Made by a program: the position numbers and the translations under genes. The notes under the pieces are model-generated. The model did no database searches, was not told the DNA's origin, and worked only from the letters and a program-made list of their open reading frames with translations. A stretch of 64,000 bases of DNA from an uncultured Kiloniellaceae bacterium (GTDB lineage: Bacteria > Pseudomonadota > Alphaproteobacteria > Kiloniellales > Kiloniellaceae): contig CANLSF010000005.1 of assembly GCA_947493695.1 (NCBI GenBank), positions 124,001 to 188,000 of the forward strand. The letters are read 5' to 3'. This document shows positions 348-50,543 of the stretch, in pieces (positions within the stretch are counted from its first letter, which is position 1; each line of letters starts with the position of its first letter).

Positions 348-530
348 CTATTGAAGAATTCGCATGAATAACTGCGGCATCCGGTTGGCCTGGGACAAAT
401 CCGAGGCAGAAACCCGCACGGGGTGCGCACCGTTGGCAGATGTACCAACGTGAGATGAAGCCGTAGCGGCAGTATTATTCAGAAAGCGTCCGGACGTACC
501 GGCGGCGATAGGTGATGCAACTACAGGCAT
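348..530 (-). CDS. 60-residue mini-flagellin (flagellin N- and C-terminal ends fused)
   Basis: Residues 1-40 align without gaps to the first 40 residues of the full-length flagellins at 46-50 kb (MPVVA start, RFLNN, ASS.VG, then VR.S). The last ~24 residues align without gaps to the flagellin C-terminus (LSQAN..PQ...R.LQ, ending exactly at the terminal Gln). About 215 internal residues, the whole D1 region and the rest of both terminal helices, are missing. Only the outermost pieces of ND0 and CD0 remain. The frame is open, substitutions are spread over both halves, and a sigma-54 promoter (655-669) and the three-hairpin flagellin leader (540-608) are intact. It could be a decayed deletion copy, but the intact control region argues that it is expressed. 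Its function is unknown. A leader-controlled decoy, a cap or export regulator, and a short filament component are all possible. Confidence 0.7.
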   Translation of the reverse strand: MPVVASPIAAGTSGRFLNNTAATASSHVGTSANGAHPVRVSASDLSQANRMPQLFMRILQ

Positions 531-539
531 GCTAAAATC

Positions 540-608
540 CTTCTACTTGAAGCTAGATACCCTTCCATCCTGGAAAGGCCCTAATGAGATCACCTACTTG
601 GCGATCTC
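540..608 (-). promoter_or_regulatory. Three-hairpin flagellin-type 5' leader of the mini-flagellin
   Basis: In the transcript, H1 (608-586) pairs GAGATCGCC with GGTGATCTC around the loop AAGTA. H2 (578-560) pairs CCTTTCCA with TGGAAGGG around the loop GGA. H3 (552-540) pairs CTTC with GAAG around AAGTA again. The Shine-Dalgarno GAAGGA begins in the 3' arm of H3. The same arrangement precedes the four full-length MPVVA-type flagellins. Confidence 0.75.
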
Positions 609-42004: not shown

Positions 42005-42117
42005 TCACACCTCCGCGACACCGCAGAGTGATACTGGAGAACTGACAAAGCTTTGGAGGGATCAGGGACCCGATCTTGCTCGTCGTTCCACCGGCACACC
42101 CCGTCCGGGTCGAATTG

Positions 42118-42310
42118 AACATGCGACGGCAGGTCTCCTGGCTCACGGCTTTCATTCTTCCGTACCTTCCCAACCGGATTAACGCCGGCCAGTGGCTTAG
42201 ACGGAAAAACACACCGCTTACAGTTGCGGGGGCAGCCACGGTTTTGGTCCCTGATGGGTACGCCTCACCGTGTTCCCTTTTAATCCCAGAGGCAGCTTCA
42301 GACTCCGAGA
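42118..42310 (-). ncRNA. Cobalamin riboswitch
   Basis: The minus strand holds the B12 box AGCCAGGAGACCTGCC (42128-42143), the conserved GCCCCCGCAACTGTAAG core, GCCACTG, GGGAAGG and an upstream GGGAA-ACGGTGAGG element in the right order. This is the classical adenosylcobalamin aptamer. It ends about 115 bases before the DUF1636 start and would repress the btu-like operon when cobalamin is plentiful. The 5' boundary is approximate. Confidence 0.93.
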
Positions 42311-42503
42311 ACCATCGCACACAGAAAGCGATAAAGCCGGGGGGCTTGTCAAGTTTGCAGTGCAGAGGTGACAACGAACCGAACAGGCGTCGCAAGTGCA
42401 GACTCTCTCCTGCTCGATGTTTCCATCAGCTATTGCTGAAAATCAAAAGCAATCCCCAAACGGCTAGCCAACCGGGTTTTCAGGCCAATCGCGTTGCATG
42501 TAT

Positions 42504-45974: not shown

Positions 45975-46808
45975 CTACTGAAGAACTCGCAGGAGTGACT
46001 GCGGGATCTGGTTGGCCTGGGACAGAGCCGAAACCGCTGCCTGCACAAGAACCTGTGAAGACACCAGCTTGGCCTGTTCAGCCGCCAGATCCACATCCGA
46101 GATAGCCGATTCTGCGGCCTGGATGTTTTCAGTGGAGGTCGCAATCTGCTGACCGCGGAACTCAAAACGCGAGATAAATGCACCCGCATTCGCCCGTGCT
46201 TCCGAGATCTCGTCAATTGCTGTATCAACCTGACCCATAGCCGTTGCCGCATTTGCTGCGGTGGTAACGTCTGCGGTCAGAAGCAGAGTGGCCGCCGTAA
46301 AGTTGGTCACGCCGCCAAGGTTAGAGAAGTCAATGTCGATGGTATCGTTTGCATCTGTACCGACAAAGAACTCAACGGCACCCGTGCCGGTTCCGTCCAA
46401 GAGGGAATCGCCGTTAAAGCGGGTTGTGGCCGCGATACCGTCGATTTCATTGGAGAGTTCCTGATACTCGGCGTCGATGAAGGCACGTTCGTTATTGGTT
46501 GGAACACCCGACAGCGAGGCAGCCGCCAGGGCTTTCATTCGCTGAAGAACGTCACCGATACGTCCCAGACCGCCATCTGCAACCTGAACCATCGAAGCGC
46601 CCTGAGAGGCGTTGATGGAAGCCTGCTGAAGAGCAACGACGTCCGAATTCAGACGGGCTGCAATCGCCAGACCCGCGGCATCGTCCGAAGCCCGCACAAT
46701 ACGCGAACCCGAGGCTAGCTTGCCAACGGAAGACGCAGCCATATTGGTGTTGTTATTCAGAAAACGTGTGGCCGTATTAGCAGCCGTATTTGTAGCAACT
46801 ACTGGCAT
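45975..46808 (-). CDS. Flagellin, MPVVA type (third gene of the operon)
   Basis: The protein has 277 residues. ND0/ND1 helices (residues 1-~140) carry MPVVATNTAANTATRFLNNN, LASGSRIVRASDDAAGLAIAARLNSDV and ATTRFNGDSLLDG. The short central part is only ~50 residues (DANDTIDIDFSNLGG), with no D2/D3 domains. CD1/CD0 carry ARANAGAFISRFEFRGQQI and end SQANQIPQSLLRVLQ. It is the farthest gene from the promoter at 48780, but it has its own leader. It differs from its neighbours mainly in residues 150-200. Confidence 0.95.
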   Translation of the reverse strand: MPVVATNTAANTATRFLNNNTNMAASSVGKLASGSRIVRASDDAAGLAIAARLNSDVVALQQASINASQGASMVQVADGGLGRIGDVLQRMKALAAASLSGVPTNNERAFIDAEYQELSNEIDGIAATTRFNGDSLLDGTGTGAVEFFVGTDANDTIDIDFSNLGGVTNFTAATLLLTADVTTAANAATAMGQVDTAIDEISEARANAGAFISRFEFRGQQIATSTENIQAAESAISDVDLAAEQAKLVSSQVLVQAAVSALSQANQIPQSLLRVLQ

Positions 46809-46817
46809 GTTTAGATC

Positions 46818-46885
46818 CTTCTACTTGAAGTCGAAACCTCTCCATCCTGGAAAGGCGAAGATGAAATCGCTTACGTAGCGATCTC
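46818..46885 (-). promoter_or_regulatory. Three-hairpin leader before the flagellin at 45975-46808
   Basis: H1 is 46885-46863 (GAGATCGCT / AGCGATTTC around ACGTA). H2 is 46855-46837 (CCTTTCCA / TGGAGAGG around GGA). H3 is 46830-46818 (CTTC / GAAG around AAGTA, overlapping the Shine-Dalgarno). No sigma-54 site is seen in this 83-bp gap, so the leader lies inside an operon transcript. Confidence 0.78.
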
Positions 46886-46891
46886 AGTCGT

Positions 46892-47737
46892 CTACTGAAG
46901 AACTCGCAGGAGTGACTGCGGGATCTGATTGGCCTGGGACAACGCCGAGACCGAGGCCTGCACAAGAACCTGTGAAGACACCAGCTTGGCCTGTTCGGCA
47001 GCCAAATCCACATCCGAGATAGCCGATTCTGCAGCCTGGATGTTTTCAGTAGAGGTTGCAATCTGCTGACCACGGAACTCAAAACGCGAGATAAACGCAC
47101 CCGCATTCGCCCGTGCTGACGAGATAATGTCGATCGCGGCATCAACCTGTGCCATTGCCGAAGCGGCATTGGCCGCTGTAGCAACTGTAGACGCCAGTCC
47201 GAGAGCCGCCGCACCAAAGGTCTGTGAAGCGGTACCGTTCGTGCTGCCCAGGGACGTAAAGTTGACCGAGATCAGATCGGCAGCATCGGTACCAACAAAG
47301 AAAGCTGCATTGGTCGTTGTGCCGCTGAGCAGTGAGTCGCCGTTAAAGCGAGTCGTATTCGCAATACCGGTGATTTCGTTGGAGAGTTCCGCATACTCGG
47401 CGTTGATGAAAGCACGTTCGTTATTGGTTGGAACACCGGACAGCGACGCAGCCGCCAGGGCTTTCATACGCTGAAGAACATCACCGATACGTCCCAGGCC
47501 ACCATCGGCAACCTGAACCATCGAAGCGCCCTGAGAGGCGTTGATGGAAGCCTGTTGAAGAGCAACAACGTCGGAATTCAGACGGGCTGCAATCGCCAGA
47601 CCTGCGGCATCGTCCGAAGCCCGCACGATACGCGAACCCGAGGCTAGCTTGCCAACGGAAGACGAAGCCATAGCGGTGTTGTTGTTCAGAAAACGTGTGG
47701 CCGTGTTGGCGGCCGTATTTGTAGCAACTACTGGCAT
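46892..47737 (-). CDS. Flagellin, MPVVA type (second gene of the operon)
   Basis: The protein has 281 residues. The terminal D0/D1 segments are almost identical to the other MPVVA flagellins; the central part differs (SGTTTNAAFFVGTDAADLI, with a longer Ala-rich loop near residue 175). The high similarity of the ends with a divergent middle suggests recombination or gene conversion between copies. It is 83 bp downstream of the first gene and shares its transcript. Confidence 0.95.
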   Translation of the reverse strand: MPVVATNTAANTATRFLNNNTAMASSSVGKLASGSRIVRASDDAAGLAIAARLNSDVVALQQASINASQGASMVQVADGGLGRIGDVLQRMKALAAASLSGVPTNNERAFINAEYAELSNEITGIANTTRFNGDSLLSGTTTNAAFFVGTDAADLISVNFTSLGSTNGTASQTFGAAALGLASTVATAANAASAMAQVDAAIDIISSARANAGAFISRFEFRGQQIATSTENIQAAESAISDVDLAAEQAKLVSSQVLVQASVSALSQANQIPQSLLRVLQ

Positions 47738-47746
47738 GTTTAGATC

Positions 47747-47814
47747 CTTCTACTTGAAGTCGAAACCTCTCCATCCTGGAAAGGCAAAGATGAAATCGCT
47801 TACGTAGCGATCTC
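47747..47814 (-). promoter_or_regulatory. Three-hairpin leader before the flagellin at 46892-47737
   Basis: It is almost identical to the leader at 46818-46885: H1 47814-47792, H2 47784-47766, H3 47759-47747. The near-identity means it adds no covariation evidence of its own. Confidence 0.78.
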
Positions 47815-47820
47815 AGTCGT

Positions 47821-48654
47821 CTACTGAAGAACTCGCAGGAGTGACTGCGGGATCTGATTGGCCTGGGACAACGCCGAGACCGAAGCCTGCACAAGAACCT
47901 GTGAAGACACCAGCTTGGCCTGTTCGGCAGCCAAATCCACATCCGAGATAGCCGATTCTGCGGCCTGGATGTTTTCAGTAGAAGTCGCAATCTGCTGACC
48001 ACGGAACTCAAAACGCGAGATAAAAGCACCCGCGTTCGCCCGCGCCTCAGAGATTTCGTCGATCGCAGCATCAACTTCGCCCATGGCCGTTGCGGCGTTC
48101 GCGGCCGTATCAACAGCCGTTGTCACACCCAAAGTACCAGAGGTAAAGTCCGCAGCCGTGGCGAGAGCGGCGAAGTTGACCGTAATAAGGTCGGCAGCAT
48201 CTGTGCCCACGAAAAAGGCAGCAGACGTTGTTCCGGTTCCGTCCAAGAGGGAATCGCCGTTAAAGCGGGTTGTGGCCGCGATACCGTCGATTTCGTTGGT
48301 CAGTTCCTGATACTCGGCGTCGATGAAGGCACGTTCGTTATTGGTTGGAACACCGGACAGCGACGCAGCCGCCAGGGCTTTCATACGCTGAAGAACGTCA
48401 CCGATACGGTTCAGACCGCCATCGGCAACCTGAACCATCGAAGCGCCCTGAGAGGCGTTGATGGAAGCCTGTTGAAGAGCAACAACGTCGGAATTCAGAC
48501 GGGCTGCAATCGCCAGACCGGCAGCATCGTCAGAAGCCCGCACGATACGCGAACCCGAGGCAAGCTTGCCAACGGAAGACGAAGCCATGTTGGTGTTGTT
48601 GTTCAGAAAACGTGTGGCCGTATTGGCGGCCGTATTTGTAGCAACTACTGGCAT
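47821..48654 (-). CDS. Flagellin, MPVVA type (first gene of the operon)
   Basis: The protein has 277 residues with the same architecture as its neighbours; the variable part is TSAAFFVGTDAADLITVNFAALATAADFTS. It is the promoter-proximal gene of a three-gene operon (this gene, then 46892-47737, then 45975-46808). A sigma-54 promoter lies 126 bp upstream. Confidence 0.95.
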   Translation of the reverse strand: MPVVATNTAANTATRFLNNNTNMASSSVGKLASGSRIVRASDDAAGLAIAARLNSDVVALQQASINASQGASMVQVADGGLNRIGDVLQRMKALAAASLSGVPTNNERAFIDAEYQELTNEIDGIAATTRFNGDSLLDGTGTTSAAFFVGTDAADLITVNFAALATAADFTSGTLGVTTAVDTAANAATAMGEVDAAIDEISEARANAGAFISRFEFRGQQIATSTENIQAAESAISDVDLAAEQAKLVSSQVLVQASVSALSQANQIPQSLLRVLQ

Positions 48655-48663
48655 GTTAATATC

Positions 48664-48732
48664 CTTCTACTTGAAGTCCGAAACCTCTCCGTCCTGGAAA
48701 GGCAACTAAGGGACCGCCTACTTGGCCATCCC
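48664..48732 (-). promoter_or_regulatory. Three-hairpin leader before the first flagellin of the operon
   Basis: H1 is 48732-48710 (GGGATGGCC / GGCGGTCCC around AAGTA, one mismatch), a different stem from the other leaders with the same loop. H2 is 48702-48684 (CCTTTCC / GGAGAGG around AGGAC). H3 is 48676-48664 (CTTC / GAAG around AAGTA). Confidence 0.78.
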
Positions 48733-48779
48733 AACGGCATAAAATTCAAATCAGAATCCATGCCGCCGCGTCATTCCAC

Positions 48780-48794
48780 GCAATTCCAATGCCA
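48780..48794 (-). promoter_or_regulatory. Sigma-54 promoter of the three-gene flagellin operon
   Basis: The minus strand reads TGGCAT-N5-TTGC with exact spacing, so transcription should start near 48768. The leader is then about 114 bases. Confidence 0.8.
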
Positions 48795-49547
48795 CTTTTT
48801 TGCCCGGAAATCGTTTGCCATGTAATGAATTATTTCAATTGGTTAGCTTACGATCTCTTTTTGACCCGGCAAAATCTGCCTGCTGGAGGTAGGAAATTTC
48901 TGCCTGATAGCCATCAAAGCGGCATTTTTTTCCCAGCGCGGGACCAGAACAGCGAAAAAATCGAGAAATAAGGGCTCAAAATTTAATTATTTTTATTGTT
49001 TTTCAATATCTTACAAGAATTAAGTGCGACTTCGGATAGCGTTCGCCCAGAATTCTCTCAGACCCAGAGGCTCTCGCTTGAGAACAGCTAATCCTCGACG
49101 GCCCTGATCATGTTTTGCGAGGATTTTTAGGCAGGAGATATCCCTAAGGTGCCCCCGCAGACCCGGTGGAAAGGGGCCGCCCCCATTAAGCGCTTGTAAA
49201 AGAACAAATTTATCAACATGGCCGGCAGGAGATATGCATCTTCAAATCGGTCTCGGTGCCTGGCAGAAAACGACCGTCACATTCCGGAGGTAGGAGTTAA
49301 GAGACAGCTACCGCGTTACGGCCGCATCAAGACAATCCCGCTCACCTGGCGGATAATACGCCAATTGCAGGTTTGGTCGCGGGGTTACGTCGCTCTCAGT
49401 TCATGATTTTACACTGCGAACTGAGCCACTGCGCGGTTGCGCTAAACCTGTGATCCTGATCCAGCGAAGATGGTCGAAACAGATATACACGCCCCTCTCT
49501 CAAAGATGCCATCCACGCCAGATCCTCTCCAAAATCGCAGAATCAAG
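48795..49547. other. Intergenic region, no supported gene
   Basis: The promoter-proximal 230 bp are AT-rich and probably hold enhancer sites for a sigma-54 activator, though no motif was identified. From 49050 to 49470 the base composition is more gene-like, and a short inverted repeat CAGTTC/GAACTG occurs at about 49397-49424, but no frame has a credible start or product. It may be degraded coding sequence. Confidence 0.45.
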
Positions 49548-49578
49548 AAGGGCGGCGTGAAAGACACGCCGCCCTTTT
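49548..49578. terminator. Terminator of the flagellin at 49647 (bidirectional)
   Basis: AAGGGCGGCGTG and CACGCCGCCCTT form a perfect 12-bp stem around AAAGA. On the plus strand it is followed by a run of T; on the minus strand CTTCTT follows. It is closely similar to the terminator at 45921, a conserved module of these flagellin units. Confidence 0.78.
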
Positions 49579-49646
49579 TTTCGAAAGTCTTTGAAACCGG
49601 GGCGTTCGTAACGAAAATCGTCAGGAACGGTCCGGCTTTTAAGCCT

Positions 49647-50465
49647 CTACTGAAGCACGCGCAGGAGTGACTGCGGGATCTGGTTTGCCTGAGACAAGGC
49701 CGAGACCGAGGCCTGCACAAGAACCTGTGAAGACACCAGCTTGGCCTGTTCAGCCGCCAGGTCGACGTCCGAAATCGCCGATTCCGCTGCCCCAATGTTC
49801 TCGATCGAAGTGGCGATCTGCTGACCACGGAATTCAAAACGTGACATCAGCGCACCGAAGGTGGCCCGCTGCTGAGAGATCGCGTCGATCGCATCATCAA
49901 CCTCGCCCATCGCTGTCGTGGCACCCGCCGTGGTGTCAACAACCGCAGCCAAGGCCAGTGTGCCGTTCGATTGGAAGTCTCCAGAAAAATCAACACTGAT
50001 GTTATCGCCGACTGCCGTACCTACGAAGAAGTCCTGTACCGCGCCCGAGCCATCCAGAAGCGAAGCACCATTAAAGCGGGTCGTCTCCGCGATACCGGTG
50101 ATTTCATCCCGCAACTGAGTAAACTCAGCATTGATGAAGCCACGTTCCGTATTGGTCGGCACACCCGACAGCGATGCAGCTGCCAGAGCTTTCATCCGCT
50201 GCAGAACATCCCCGATCCGTGACAAACCACCGTCAGCGACCTGAACCATGGAAGAACCCTGAGAGGCGTTGATGGAGGATTGTTGCAAAGCAACGACGTC
50301 GGAATTCAGACGGGCTGCAATCGCGAGGCCGGCGGCATCATCCGAAGCCCGCACGATACGCGAACCGGACGCAAGCTTGCCGACGGAAGACGAAGCCATA
50401 GAGGTGTTGTTGTTGAGGTAACGTGTGGCCGTGTTGGCGGCCGTATTTGTAGCTACTACTGGCAT
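49647..50465 (-). CDS. Flagellin, MPVVA type (single-gene unit)
   Basis: The protein has 272 residues, the shortest of the set. It has the same MPVVATN start and SLLRVLQ end, but a more divergent second half (EFTQLRDEITGIAETTRF, AVGDNISVDFSGDFQS, QQRATFGALMSRFEF). It stands as its own transcription unit with a sigma-54 promoter at 50593-50607 and a terminator at 49548-49578. It is thus separately expressible from the three-gene operon. Confidence 0.95.
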   Translation of the reverse strand: MPVVATNTAANTATRYLNNNTSMASSSVGKLASGSRIVRASDDAAGLAIAARLNSDVVALQQSSINASQGSSMVQVADGGLSRIGDVLQRMKALAAASLSGVPTNTERGFINAEFTQLRDEITGIAETTRFNGASLLDGSGAVQDFFVGTAVGDNISVDFSGDFQSNGTLALAAVVDTTAGATTAMGEVDDAIDAISQQRATFGALMSRFEFRGQQIATSIENIGAAESAISDVDLAAEQAKLVSSQVLVQASVSALSQANQIPQSLLRVLQ

Positions 50466-50474
50466 GACAAAATC

Positions 50475-50543
50475 CTTCTACTTGAAGTTTAAAACCTCCC
50501 CTTCATGGAAAGGTCTCAGTAAATGGCAACCTACTTGGCTGCC
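50475..50543 (-). promoter_or_regulatory. Three-hairpin leader before the flagellin at 49647-50465
   Basis: H1 is 50543-50525 (GGCAGCC / GGTTGCC around AAGTA), with a changed stem but the same loop. H2 is 50513-50495 (CCTTTCC / GGGGAGG around ATGAA), so its loop has lost the GGA. H3 is 50487-50475 (CTTC / GAAG around AAGTA, overlapping the Shine-Dalgarno). Confidence 0.77.

Follow-up and report, generated by a model that had tools for sequence, protein, structure and literature searches.

Flagellin genes and their leaders in the window

The flagellin genes and the RNA leaders preceding them were analysed in a 64,000-nucleotide stretch of DNA from an uncultured Kiloniellaceae bacterium (assembly GCA_947493695.1, contig CANLSF010000005.1, positions 124,001 to 188,000), referred to as the window. 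Six flagellins were detected in the 6.46 Mb source genome, all of them inside the window and on the minus strand. Four begin with MPVVA (starts at 46808, 47737, 48654 and 50465) and two with MPTVT (52889 and 54275). A leader of three hairpins (H1, H2 and H3), extending to the start codon, precedes each of the four MPVVA flagellins and a mini-flagellin of 60 amino acids (aa; start at 530). An earlier note on this DNA had claimed this arrangement for the span 46818..50543, which takes in the leaders of the four full-length genes and leaves the mini-flagellin copy outside. The leader parts and genes are as follows.

46863..46885, minus strand: H1 in the leader of flagellin 46808, loop ACGUA (sequence and covariation)
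46837..46855, minus strand: H2 in the leader of flagellin 46808, loop AGGAU, a GGA hairpin of the A(N)GGAX type (sequence and covariation)
46818..46830, minus strand: H3 in the leader of flagellin 46808, loop AAGUA; its 3' arm overlaps the Shine-Dalgarno sequence AAGGA (46816-46820)
45975..46808, minus strand: MPVVA flagellin, 277 aa
47792..47814, minus strand: H1 in the leader of flagellin 47737, loop ACGUA
47766..47784, minus strand: H2 in the leader of flagellin 47737, loop AGGAU
47747..47759, minus strand: H3 in the leader of flagellin 47737, loop AAGUA, with Shine-Dalgarno
46892..47737, minus strand: MPVVA flagellin, 281 aa
48710..48732, minus strand: H1 in the leader of flagellin 48654, loop AAGUA
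48684..48702, minus strand: H2 in the leader of flagellin 48654, loop AGGAC
48664..48676, minus strand: H3 in the leader of flagellin 48654, loop AAGUA, with Shine-Dalgarno
47821..48654, minus strand: MPVVA flagellin, 277 aa
50525..50543, minus strand: H1 in the leader of flagellin 50465, loop AAGUA
50495..50513, minus strand: H2 in the leader of flagellin 50465, loop AUGAA, with GGA absent from the loop
50475..50487, minus strand: H3 in the leader of flagellin 50465, loop AAGUA, with Shine-Dalgarno
49647..50465, minus strand: MPVVA flagellin, 272 aa
586..608, minus strand: H1 in the mini-flagellin leader, loop AAGUA
560..578, minus strand: H2 in the mini-flagellin leader, loop AGGAU
540..552, minus strand: H3 in the mini-flagellin leader, loop AAGUA, with Shine-Dalgarno
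348..530, minus strand: mini-flagellin open reading frame, 60 aa
655..670, minus strand: TTGGCA..TTGC, sigma54-like by consensus, ahead of the mini-flagellin leader and conserved in two relatives

The sequence CTTCAAGTAGAAGGA ends 7 bases upstream of the start codon in all five leaders; these five occurrences are the only ones in the window, one for each leader-bearing start. The H1 stems differ from copy to copy and have matching 3' arms, and the H3 loop is AAGUA with its 3' arm reaching into the Shine-Dalgarno sequence, all as the note had described. GGA is found in four of the five H2 loops, where the note had spoken of most copies. For 46808 and 47737, the 83-nucleotide gap after the stop codon of the upstream flagellin is wholly occupied by the leader, and these cistrons therefore each have their own copy, as had been proposed for the genes of this operon.

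The two MPTVT flagellins have different leaders without H1-H2-H3. Many relatives show TTGGCAC..TGC stretches that are sigma54-like by the same consensus, and a hairpin with loop AGGAA, AGGCA or AAGCA, similar to the loop class described here. Over the whole window, a sigma54-type pattern was not enriched (61 matches vs 70.9 expected).

The leader family and its helices

A covariance model built from the five window leaders was searched in 61 genomes of the order, along the line that the earlier note had suggested, and matched in 17, all within Kiloniellaceae. The source genome was grouped in the same genus as genomes G036-G038, and the flagellin used as query has its closest named relatives in an uncultured Kiloniellaceae genome and in Pelagibius, Denitrobaculum and Kiloniella. 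From sequence regions of the 17 genomes, 51 leaders (50 distinct) were read, of which 47 precede flagellins (some cut by contig ends), three precede mini-flagellins and one precedes a 13-codon open reading frame. This last copy, found in genome G047 (L174:6454, plus strand), is an orphan H2-H3 part of the leader situated downstream of the flagellins. No MPVV-starting flagellin lacking the leader was found among the flagellins read in the Kiloniellaceae regions; the 33 flagellins without it start with MPTV (30), MPVI (2) or MPTI (1).

Covariation was analysed by our own script modelled on R-scape, in which parsimony changes on a FastTree tree were re-dealt over the branches and column pairs were scored by a G statistic with average product correction. 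The null comprised 300 alignments, and E-values were computed over the 21 proposed pairs. Significant covariation (E<0.05) was detected in 9 of the 21 pairs, three in H1 and six in H2, with a null mean of 0.07 and a maximum of 1; nine were also obtained in an initial run against 60 null alignments. When the 3' partners were slid by -3 to +3, no significant pair was obtained in any register. The covariation thus exceeds what common ancestry of the copies yields under the tree-based null, including in the H1 stems whose variation the earlier note had pointed out. RNAalifold, run on 23 leaders, gave H1, H2 and H3 unprompted, and 14 of 20 pairs retain pairing through two-sided change. The restriction of the sequence to the five starts, the unprompted fold and the absence of covariation in slid registers together indicate that the leaders are not a product of chance. 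H1 and H2 are true helices.

Pairs are frequently broken at the outer end of H1 (pair 9 in 27 of 46) and at two inner positions of H2 (pair 5 in 11 of 50, pair 6 in 10 of 50), and three copies of genome G047 have, on our own reading of the alignment, no clear H1 at the aligned place. Folding energy is moderately low (z from -1.8 to -3.0 for the five window copies; mean -2.0 over 50 leaders). H3 has a mean predicted pairing probability of 0.78 and the Shine-Dalgarno sequence a mean unpaired probability of 0.39 over the 50 leaders, which were selected through the H3/Shine-Dalgarno sequence. The H3 stem is identical in 50 of 50 family leaders. Its second pair is U-A in all 50 Kiloniellaceae H3 sites, and seven further matches occur there in MPTV/MPVI leaders; at 36 sites outside the family, for which loop and Shine-Dalgarno alone were required, it is C-G in 27, U-A in 6, G-C in 2 and unpaired in 1. 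Few independent events may lie behind this U-A/C-G switch.

Membership in a known Rfam family, including the flg-Rhizobiales RNA (RF01736), was considered and rejected: the sole gathering-level match in the window was a cobalamin riboswitch, and a search of nine loci at E up to 1 returned only mir-341 and anti-hemB, both unrelated. The riboswitch (RF00174, E=5.5e-30; 42111-42331, minus strand) lies upstream of minus-strand genes at 39-42 kb which, by sequence, look like an ABC importer.

Loop sequences and candidate regulators

Among the 50 leaders, the H3 loop is AAGUA in 49 and AUGUA in 1. The H1 loop is AAGUA in 26, AAGAA in 11, ACGUA in 4 and another sequence in 9; the form A(A/C)GUA that the note had regarded as fixed is thus constant in the window copies and variable in the wider family. 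H2 carries AGGAX in 38 (AGGAA 17, AGGAG 9, AGGAT 7 and AGGAC 5, X being free), AAGAA in 5, AUGAA in 2 and others in 5. The Shine-Dalgarno AAGGA is present in 5/5 window copies and in 50/50 leaders, which were selected by that sequence. Of the 39 leaders with a CAGGANG loop, 38 have 28-35 nucleotides between the last such loop and the GGA of the Shine-Dalgarno. No GGA was found in these leaders within the H3 loop, the place where SL2 of Campylobacter jejuni has one; the GGA straddles the end of the 3' arm of H3.

Upstream of the Shine-Dalgarno hairpin, the leaders of Kiloniellaceae and of other genomes with FliW contain 167 distinct C-G-closed pentaloop hairpins, 99 of them of the form C[A.G..]G, which comprise 46 AGGAX, 45 GGA-less ANG(A/C/U)A and 8 of other sequence. 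Compared with shuffled leaders, hairpins of the class C[ANGWN]G are in excess (63 vs 0.9 in Kiloniellaceae; 28 vs 0.9 in other FliW genomes) and, though few, also exceed shuffles elsewhere (2 vs 0.08 in FlbT genomes; 3 vs 0.24 in genomes without FliW). Across families, the N position is the most variable base of the Shine-Dalgarno loop (AAGUA, AUGUA, AGGUA, ACGUA). Non-flagellin targets were considered and set aside: class hairpins with a stem of at least 5 outside flagellin leaders amounted to two of nine window matches and two across 54 kb of nearby flagellar DNA, against five and three for a reversed-loop control.

The source genome has one CsrA (C5:98125, E=5.7e-21, 26 kb off the window edge) and a FliW (C5:120960, PF02623, 62.9 bits, 3 kb off the window edge) that follows an open reading frame resembling flgL on our own reading. 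Marine magnetotactic bacteria, too, have been noted to carry fliW in their flagellar gene cluster (PMC7175107). Across the 61 genomes of the order, within which FlbT and CsrA status was determined, CsrA is present in 53, FliW in 39 and FlbT in 13. FlbT was found neither in the source genome nor in any of 23 Kiloniellaceae genomes, and 17 of the 17 leader genomes have CsrA and FliW with FlbT not found. The earlier note had named an FlbT-like or CsrA-like RNA-binding regulator and asked after flbT and csrA in this genome; of the pair, the CsrA-like candidate is supported by the H2 site and by the presence of CsrA and FliW, and the FlbT-like one is not.

The distribution of the Shine-Dalgarno hairpin was compared with that of FliW in counts that ignore kinship. 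A hairpin with loop ANGUA occurs in 17 of 20 Kiloniellaceae genomes read and, outside this family, in 29/47 FliW genomes representing 15 of 28 families, 1/23 genomes without FliW, 0/11 with FlbT and 0/2 with both. The single FliW-less carrier (G005) is 82% complete and congeneric with FliW carriers. With the looser loop ANGWN, the numbers are 33/47 (18/28 families), 1/23, 1/11 and 0/2. Shuffling the last 40 bases gave about 0.5 chance matches per 63 leaders. Because Kiloniellaceae and further families of the order supplied the formula, counts there are partly circular; in other orders, read after the formula had been set, ANGUA was present in 18/36 FliW genomes vs 0/21 without FliW, and ANGWN in 22/36 vs 0/21. 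The 36 are a subset of 48 FliW genomes, and the 21 a subset of 32 flagellin-bearing ones among 59 FliW-less genomes. Flagellins were chosen by sequence pattern, which left six FliW genomes (G017, G058, G074, G173, G394 and G407) and 9 of 30 FliW-less loci unparsed, and the MPTVN-type flagellins of Kiloniella stand outside the tallies. The unparsed genome G058 nevertheless shows CCAAGTAGGAGG.

The FlbT genomes of the order (L212, L213, L214, L215, L296-L305) have a similar tandem-hairpin layout with another loop, AGAAY. Of 11 FlbT genomes, 7 have C-AGAAY-GGAG at the Shine-Dalgarno, a sequence that no other group shows; AGAAY was seen there in 0 of the 67 genomes that make up the two FliW groups (20 Kiloniellaceae, including G053 without a FliW match, and 47 others). 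Further upstream, AGAAC and AGAAU make up 10 of the 23 distinct pentaloop hairpins of FlbT genomes. The AGAAY loop is accordingly a candidate FlbT site; because these genomes have CsrA too, FlbT is not its sole candidate reader.

In the CsrA of the source genome, positions 33-37 read GFTFP and residue 43 is L; the five solved CsrA/RsmE chains compared (nine matched) have V/I-N-A-P and H43 there. GF(T/N)FP is found in 18 of the 19 CsrA proteins parsed from the order (21 looked at; L019, L216-L235). FlbT genomes share it, so it alone does not explain the loops. The segment at GFTFP/NAP presumably faces the RNA.

A putative CsrA-FliW leader and its place among known systems

From the hairpins and their conservation, the gene context and the presence of CsrA and FliW with FlbT not found, each MPVVA-type flagellin cistron probably has its own leader for translational control of the CsrA-FliW type, with an unusual loop. 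We infer CsrA binding, repression by that binding, relief by FliW and a role of the ANGUA loops as follows. CsrA would dock on the AGGAX pentaloop of H2 and on the Shine-Dalgarno AAGGA, because H2 fits the pentaloop A-GGA-X, which RsmE accepts at lower affinity with N missing and X free (PMC4005645), and the Shine-Dalgarno offers a second GGA site about 30 nucleotides downstream; the latter would already be half masked, lying partly in the 3' arm of H3. Such binding would stop flagellin translation until hook completion, when free FliW would remove CsrA and translation would follow. The copy at 50465, whose H2 lacks GGA, may be less repressed. Judged by its letters, ANGUA has the same form as the CsrA pentaloop ANGGA, save that another base stands for the second G, and since N is the most variable base of the Shine-Dalgarno loop across families, the same protein family may read it. 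The ANGUA loop of H1 and H3 (ANGAA also in H1) would then join the same recognition by an alphaproteobacterial CsrA, which departs from the solved structures compared at segment 34-36 and residue 43. Recognition of the AAGUA loop by a protein is plausible and is favoured by the recurrence of ANGUA at the flagellin Shine-Dalgarno in other FliW-bearing alphaproteobacterial families. The earlier note knew of no such recognition, and our search of the open-licence PMC literature likewise found no description of it, nor any of CsrA or such a leader RNA at alphaproteobacterial flagellins.

Several observations weigh against this interpretation. GGA is absent from the H1 and H3 loops, one H1 (AGGAA) excepted, and from H2 of the 50465 copy. 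In published structures, the bases of A(N)GGAX are not substitutable (PMC4005645). The high-affinity pentaloop ANGGA was sought among the 99 distinct C[A.G..]G hairpins and found in none; the high-affinity hexaloop ANGGAX, also sought, was represented in 146 leaders by five distinct weak hairpins (stem of 4 or more), none of them C-G-closed. CsrA is also found in FlbT genomes lacking the ANGUA motif, so it is FliW, and not CsrA, that the motif accompanies. In the FliW association, related genomes cannot count as independent, and the ANGWN hairpin is missing from 10 of 28 FliW families. As to the structure, unpaired columns score high too (structure pairs are 10 of the top 25 column pairs, including the top 5), and the H3 helix, because it does not vary there, receives no covariation test inside the family.

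The loops without GGA could instead be read by a protein other than CsrA, which would recognise ANGUA/ANGAA of H1 and H3, and perhaps H2, as one class C[ANGWA]G, with CsrA uninvolved or acting at the Shine-Dalgarno only. Besides the H1 and H3 loops, this is consistent with the 45 of 99 hairpins that keep ANG(A/C/U)A without GGA and with 7 of the 12 GGA-less H2 loops being ANGAA (AAGAA 5, AUGAA 2), position 2 free and A1 and G3 kept. The CsrA loop ANGGA likewise combines a free N with constant A1, G3 and A5, no candidate protein was identified, and the motif tracks FliW, whose only RNA-linked partner in the consulted parts of two sources is CsrA (PMC4894983, PMC4347634). We regard a non-CsrA reader as unlikely.

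Still less likely is that H3 is a plain Shine-Dalgarno-sequestering hairpin, with H1 and H2 protecting the mRNA or spacing the cistrons of a polycistronic message and no dedicated regulator. H3 is predicted to form with the Shine-Dalgarno mostly paired, and the leader occupies the entire gap before 46808 and 47737, as such a role would have it; however, the loops are more conserved than the stems (H3 AAGUA 49/50, H2 AGGAX 38/50), and protection or sequestration would neither preserve loops nor tie them to FliW. FlbT-type control, suggested by the proposed binding of FlbT to the flagellin 5' untranslated region (UTR) of Caulobacter and Brucella (PMC4347634) and by the similarly laid-out leaders of FlbT genomes, is very improbable, given that FlbT was not found in the source genome or its family (a divergent one below the search cut-off would reopen the matter) and that FlbT genomes have the other Shine-Dalgarno loop (AGAAY, 7/11 vs 0/67).

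Beyond the CsrA-FliW reading itself, a loop code matched to the regulator may tentatively be envisaged. The tandem hairpins of many FliW-bearing lineages, the Shine-Dalgarno hairpin among them, with ANGUA, ANGAA and AGGAX, might be read by an altered CsrA (GFTFP, L43) that tolerates a non-G in the middle of GGA, or by another partner, and AGAAY of FlbT lineages might be the FlbT site.

The mini-flagellin comprises, on our own reading, the N- and C-terminal ends of flagellin without the middle, and has no Pfam match. Downstream on the same strand lie flaG, an open reading frame that we read as fliD-like, and fliS. Comparison of three species shows 3-7 differences over the 83 bases of its leader and 18-45 over the 180 positions of its open reading frame, which has a constant length of 60 aa; because the leader differs far less, the RNA is better kept than the peptide. 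Codon conservation as proof of a working mini-flagellin was rejected, as no codon-position bias was seen among the three species. That this leader copy serves as a CsrA sponge, or in the control of flaG-fliD-fliS, is speculation.

CsrA-FliW control of a flagellin is known from Bacillus (hag). If the reading proposed here is true, such control extends from Bacillus and Campylobacter to Alphaproteobacteria, where FlbT and FlaF are the studied regulators, and the AGAAY leaders of FlbT genomes become a concrete candidate for the FlbT recognition element. Either CsrA would read a loop without GGA, contrary to published structures (PMC4005645), or a further RNA-binding protein would act at flagellin mRNAs.

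The nearest known system is flaA of C. jejuni (PMC4894983). Its leader has two hairpins, each with an ANGGA loop, and the second covers the ribosome-binding site; it is repressed by CsrA, which FliW antagonises, and doubles as an RNA antagonist of CsrA. Shared with the present leaders are hairpins with CsrA-type loops before a flagellin, the last one over the ribosome-binding site, compensatory changes, and the presence of both CsrA and FliW. Unlike flaA, the leaders described here comprise three hairpins, of which H2 carries AGGAX and H1 and H3 carry ANGUA/ANGAA, and they occur once for each cistron of a tandem array. H2 resembles SL3 and SL4 of Pseudomonas RsmZ, which are RsmE/CsrA sites, in being a five-base A-GGA-X loop, X free, set directly on the stem; RsmZ is a sponge small RNA and not a flagellin leader, and H1 and H3 fall outside the A-GGA-X formula (PMC4005645). 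The flg-Rhizobiales RNA (RF01736) is likewise an alphaproteobacterial candidate structured RNA with a flagellar name (PMC2864571). With the flagellin 5' UTR that FlbT is proposed to bind in Caulobacter and Brucella, the leaders would share control of alphaproteobacterial flagellin mRNA through the 5' UTR; a 2015 review gives no FlbT recognition sequence and calls the mechanism unresolved (PMC4347634). They differ from FlbT systems in a source genome where FlbT was not found and in loops distinct from those of the order's FlbT genomes.

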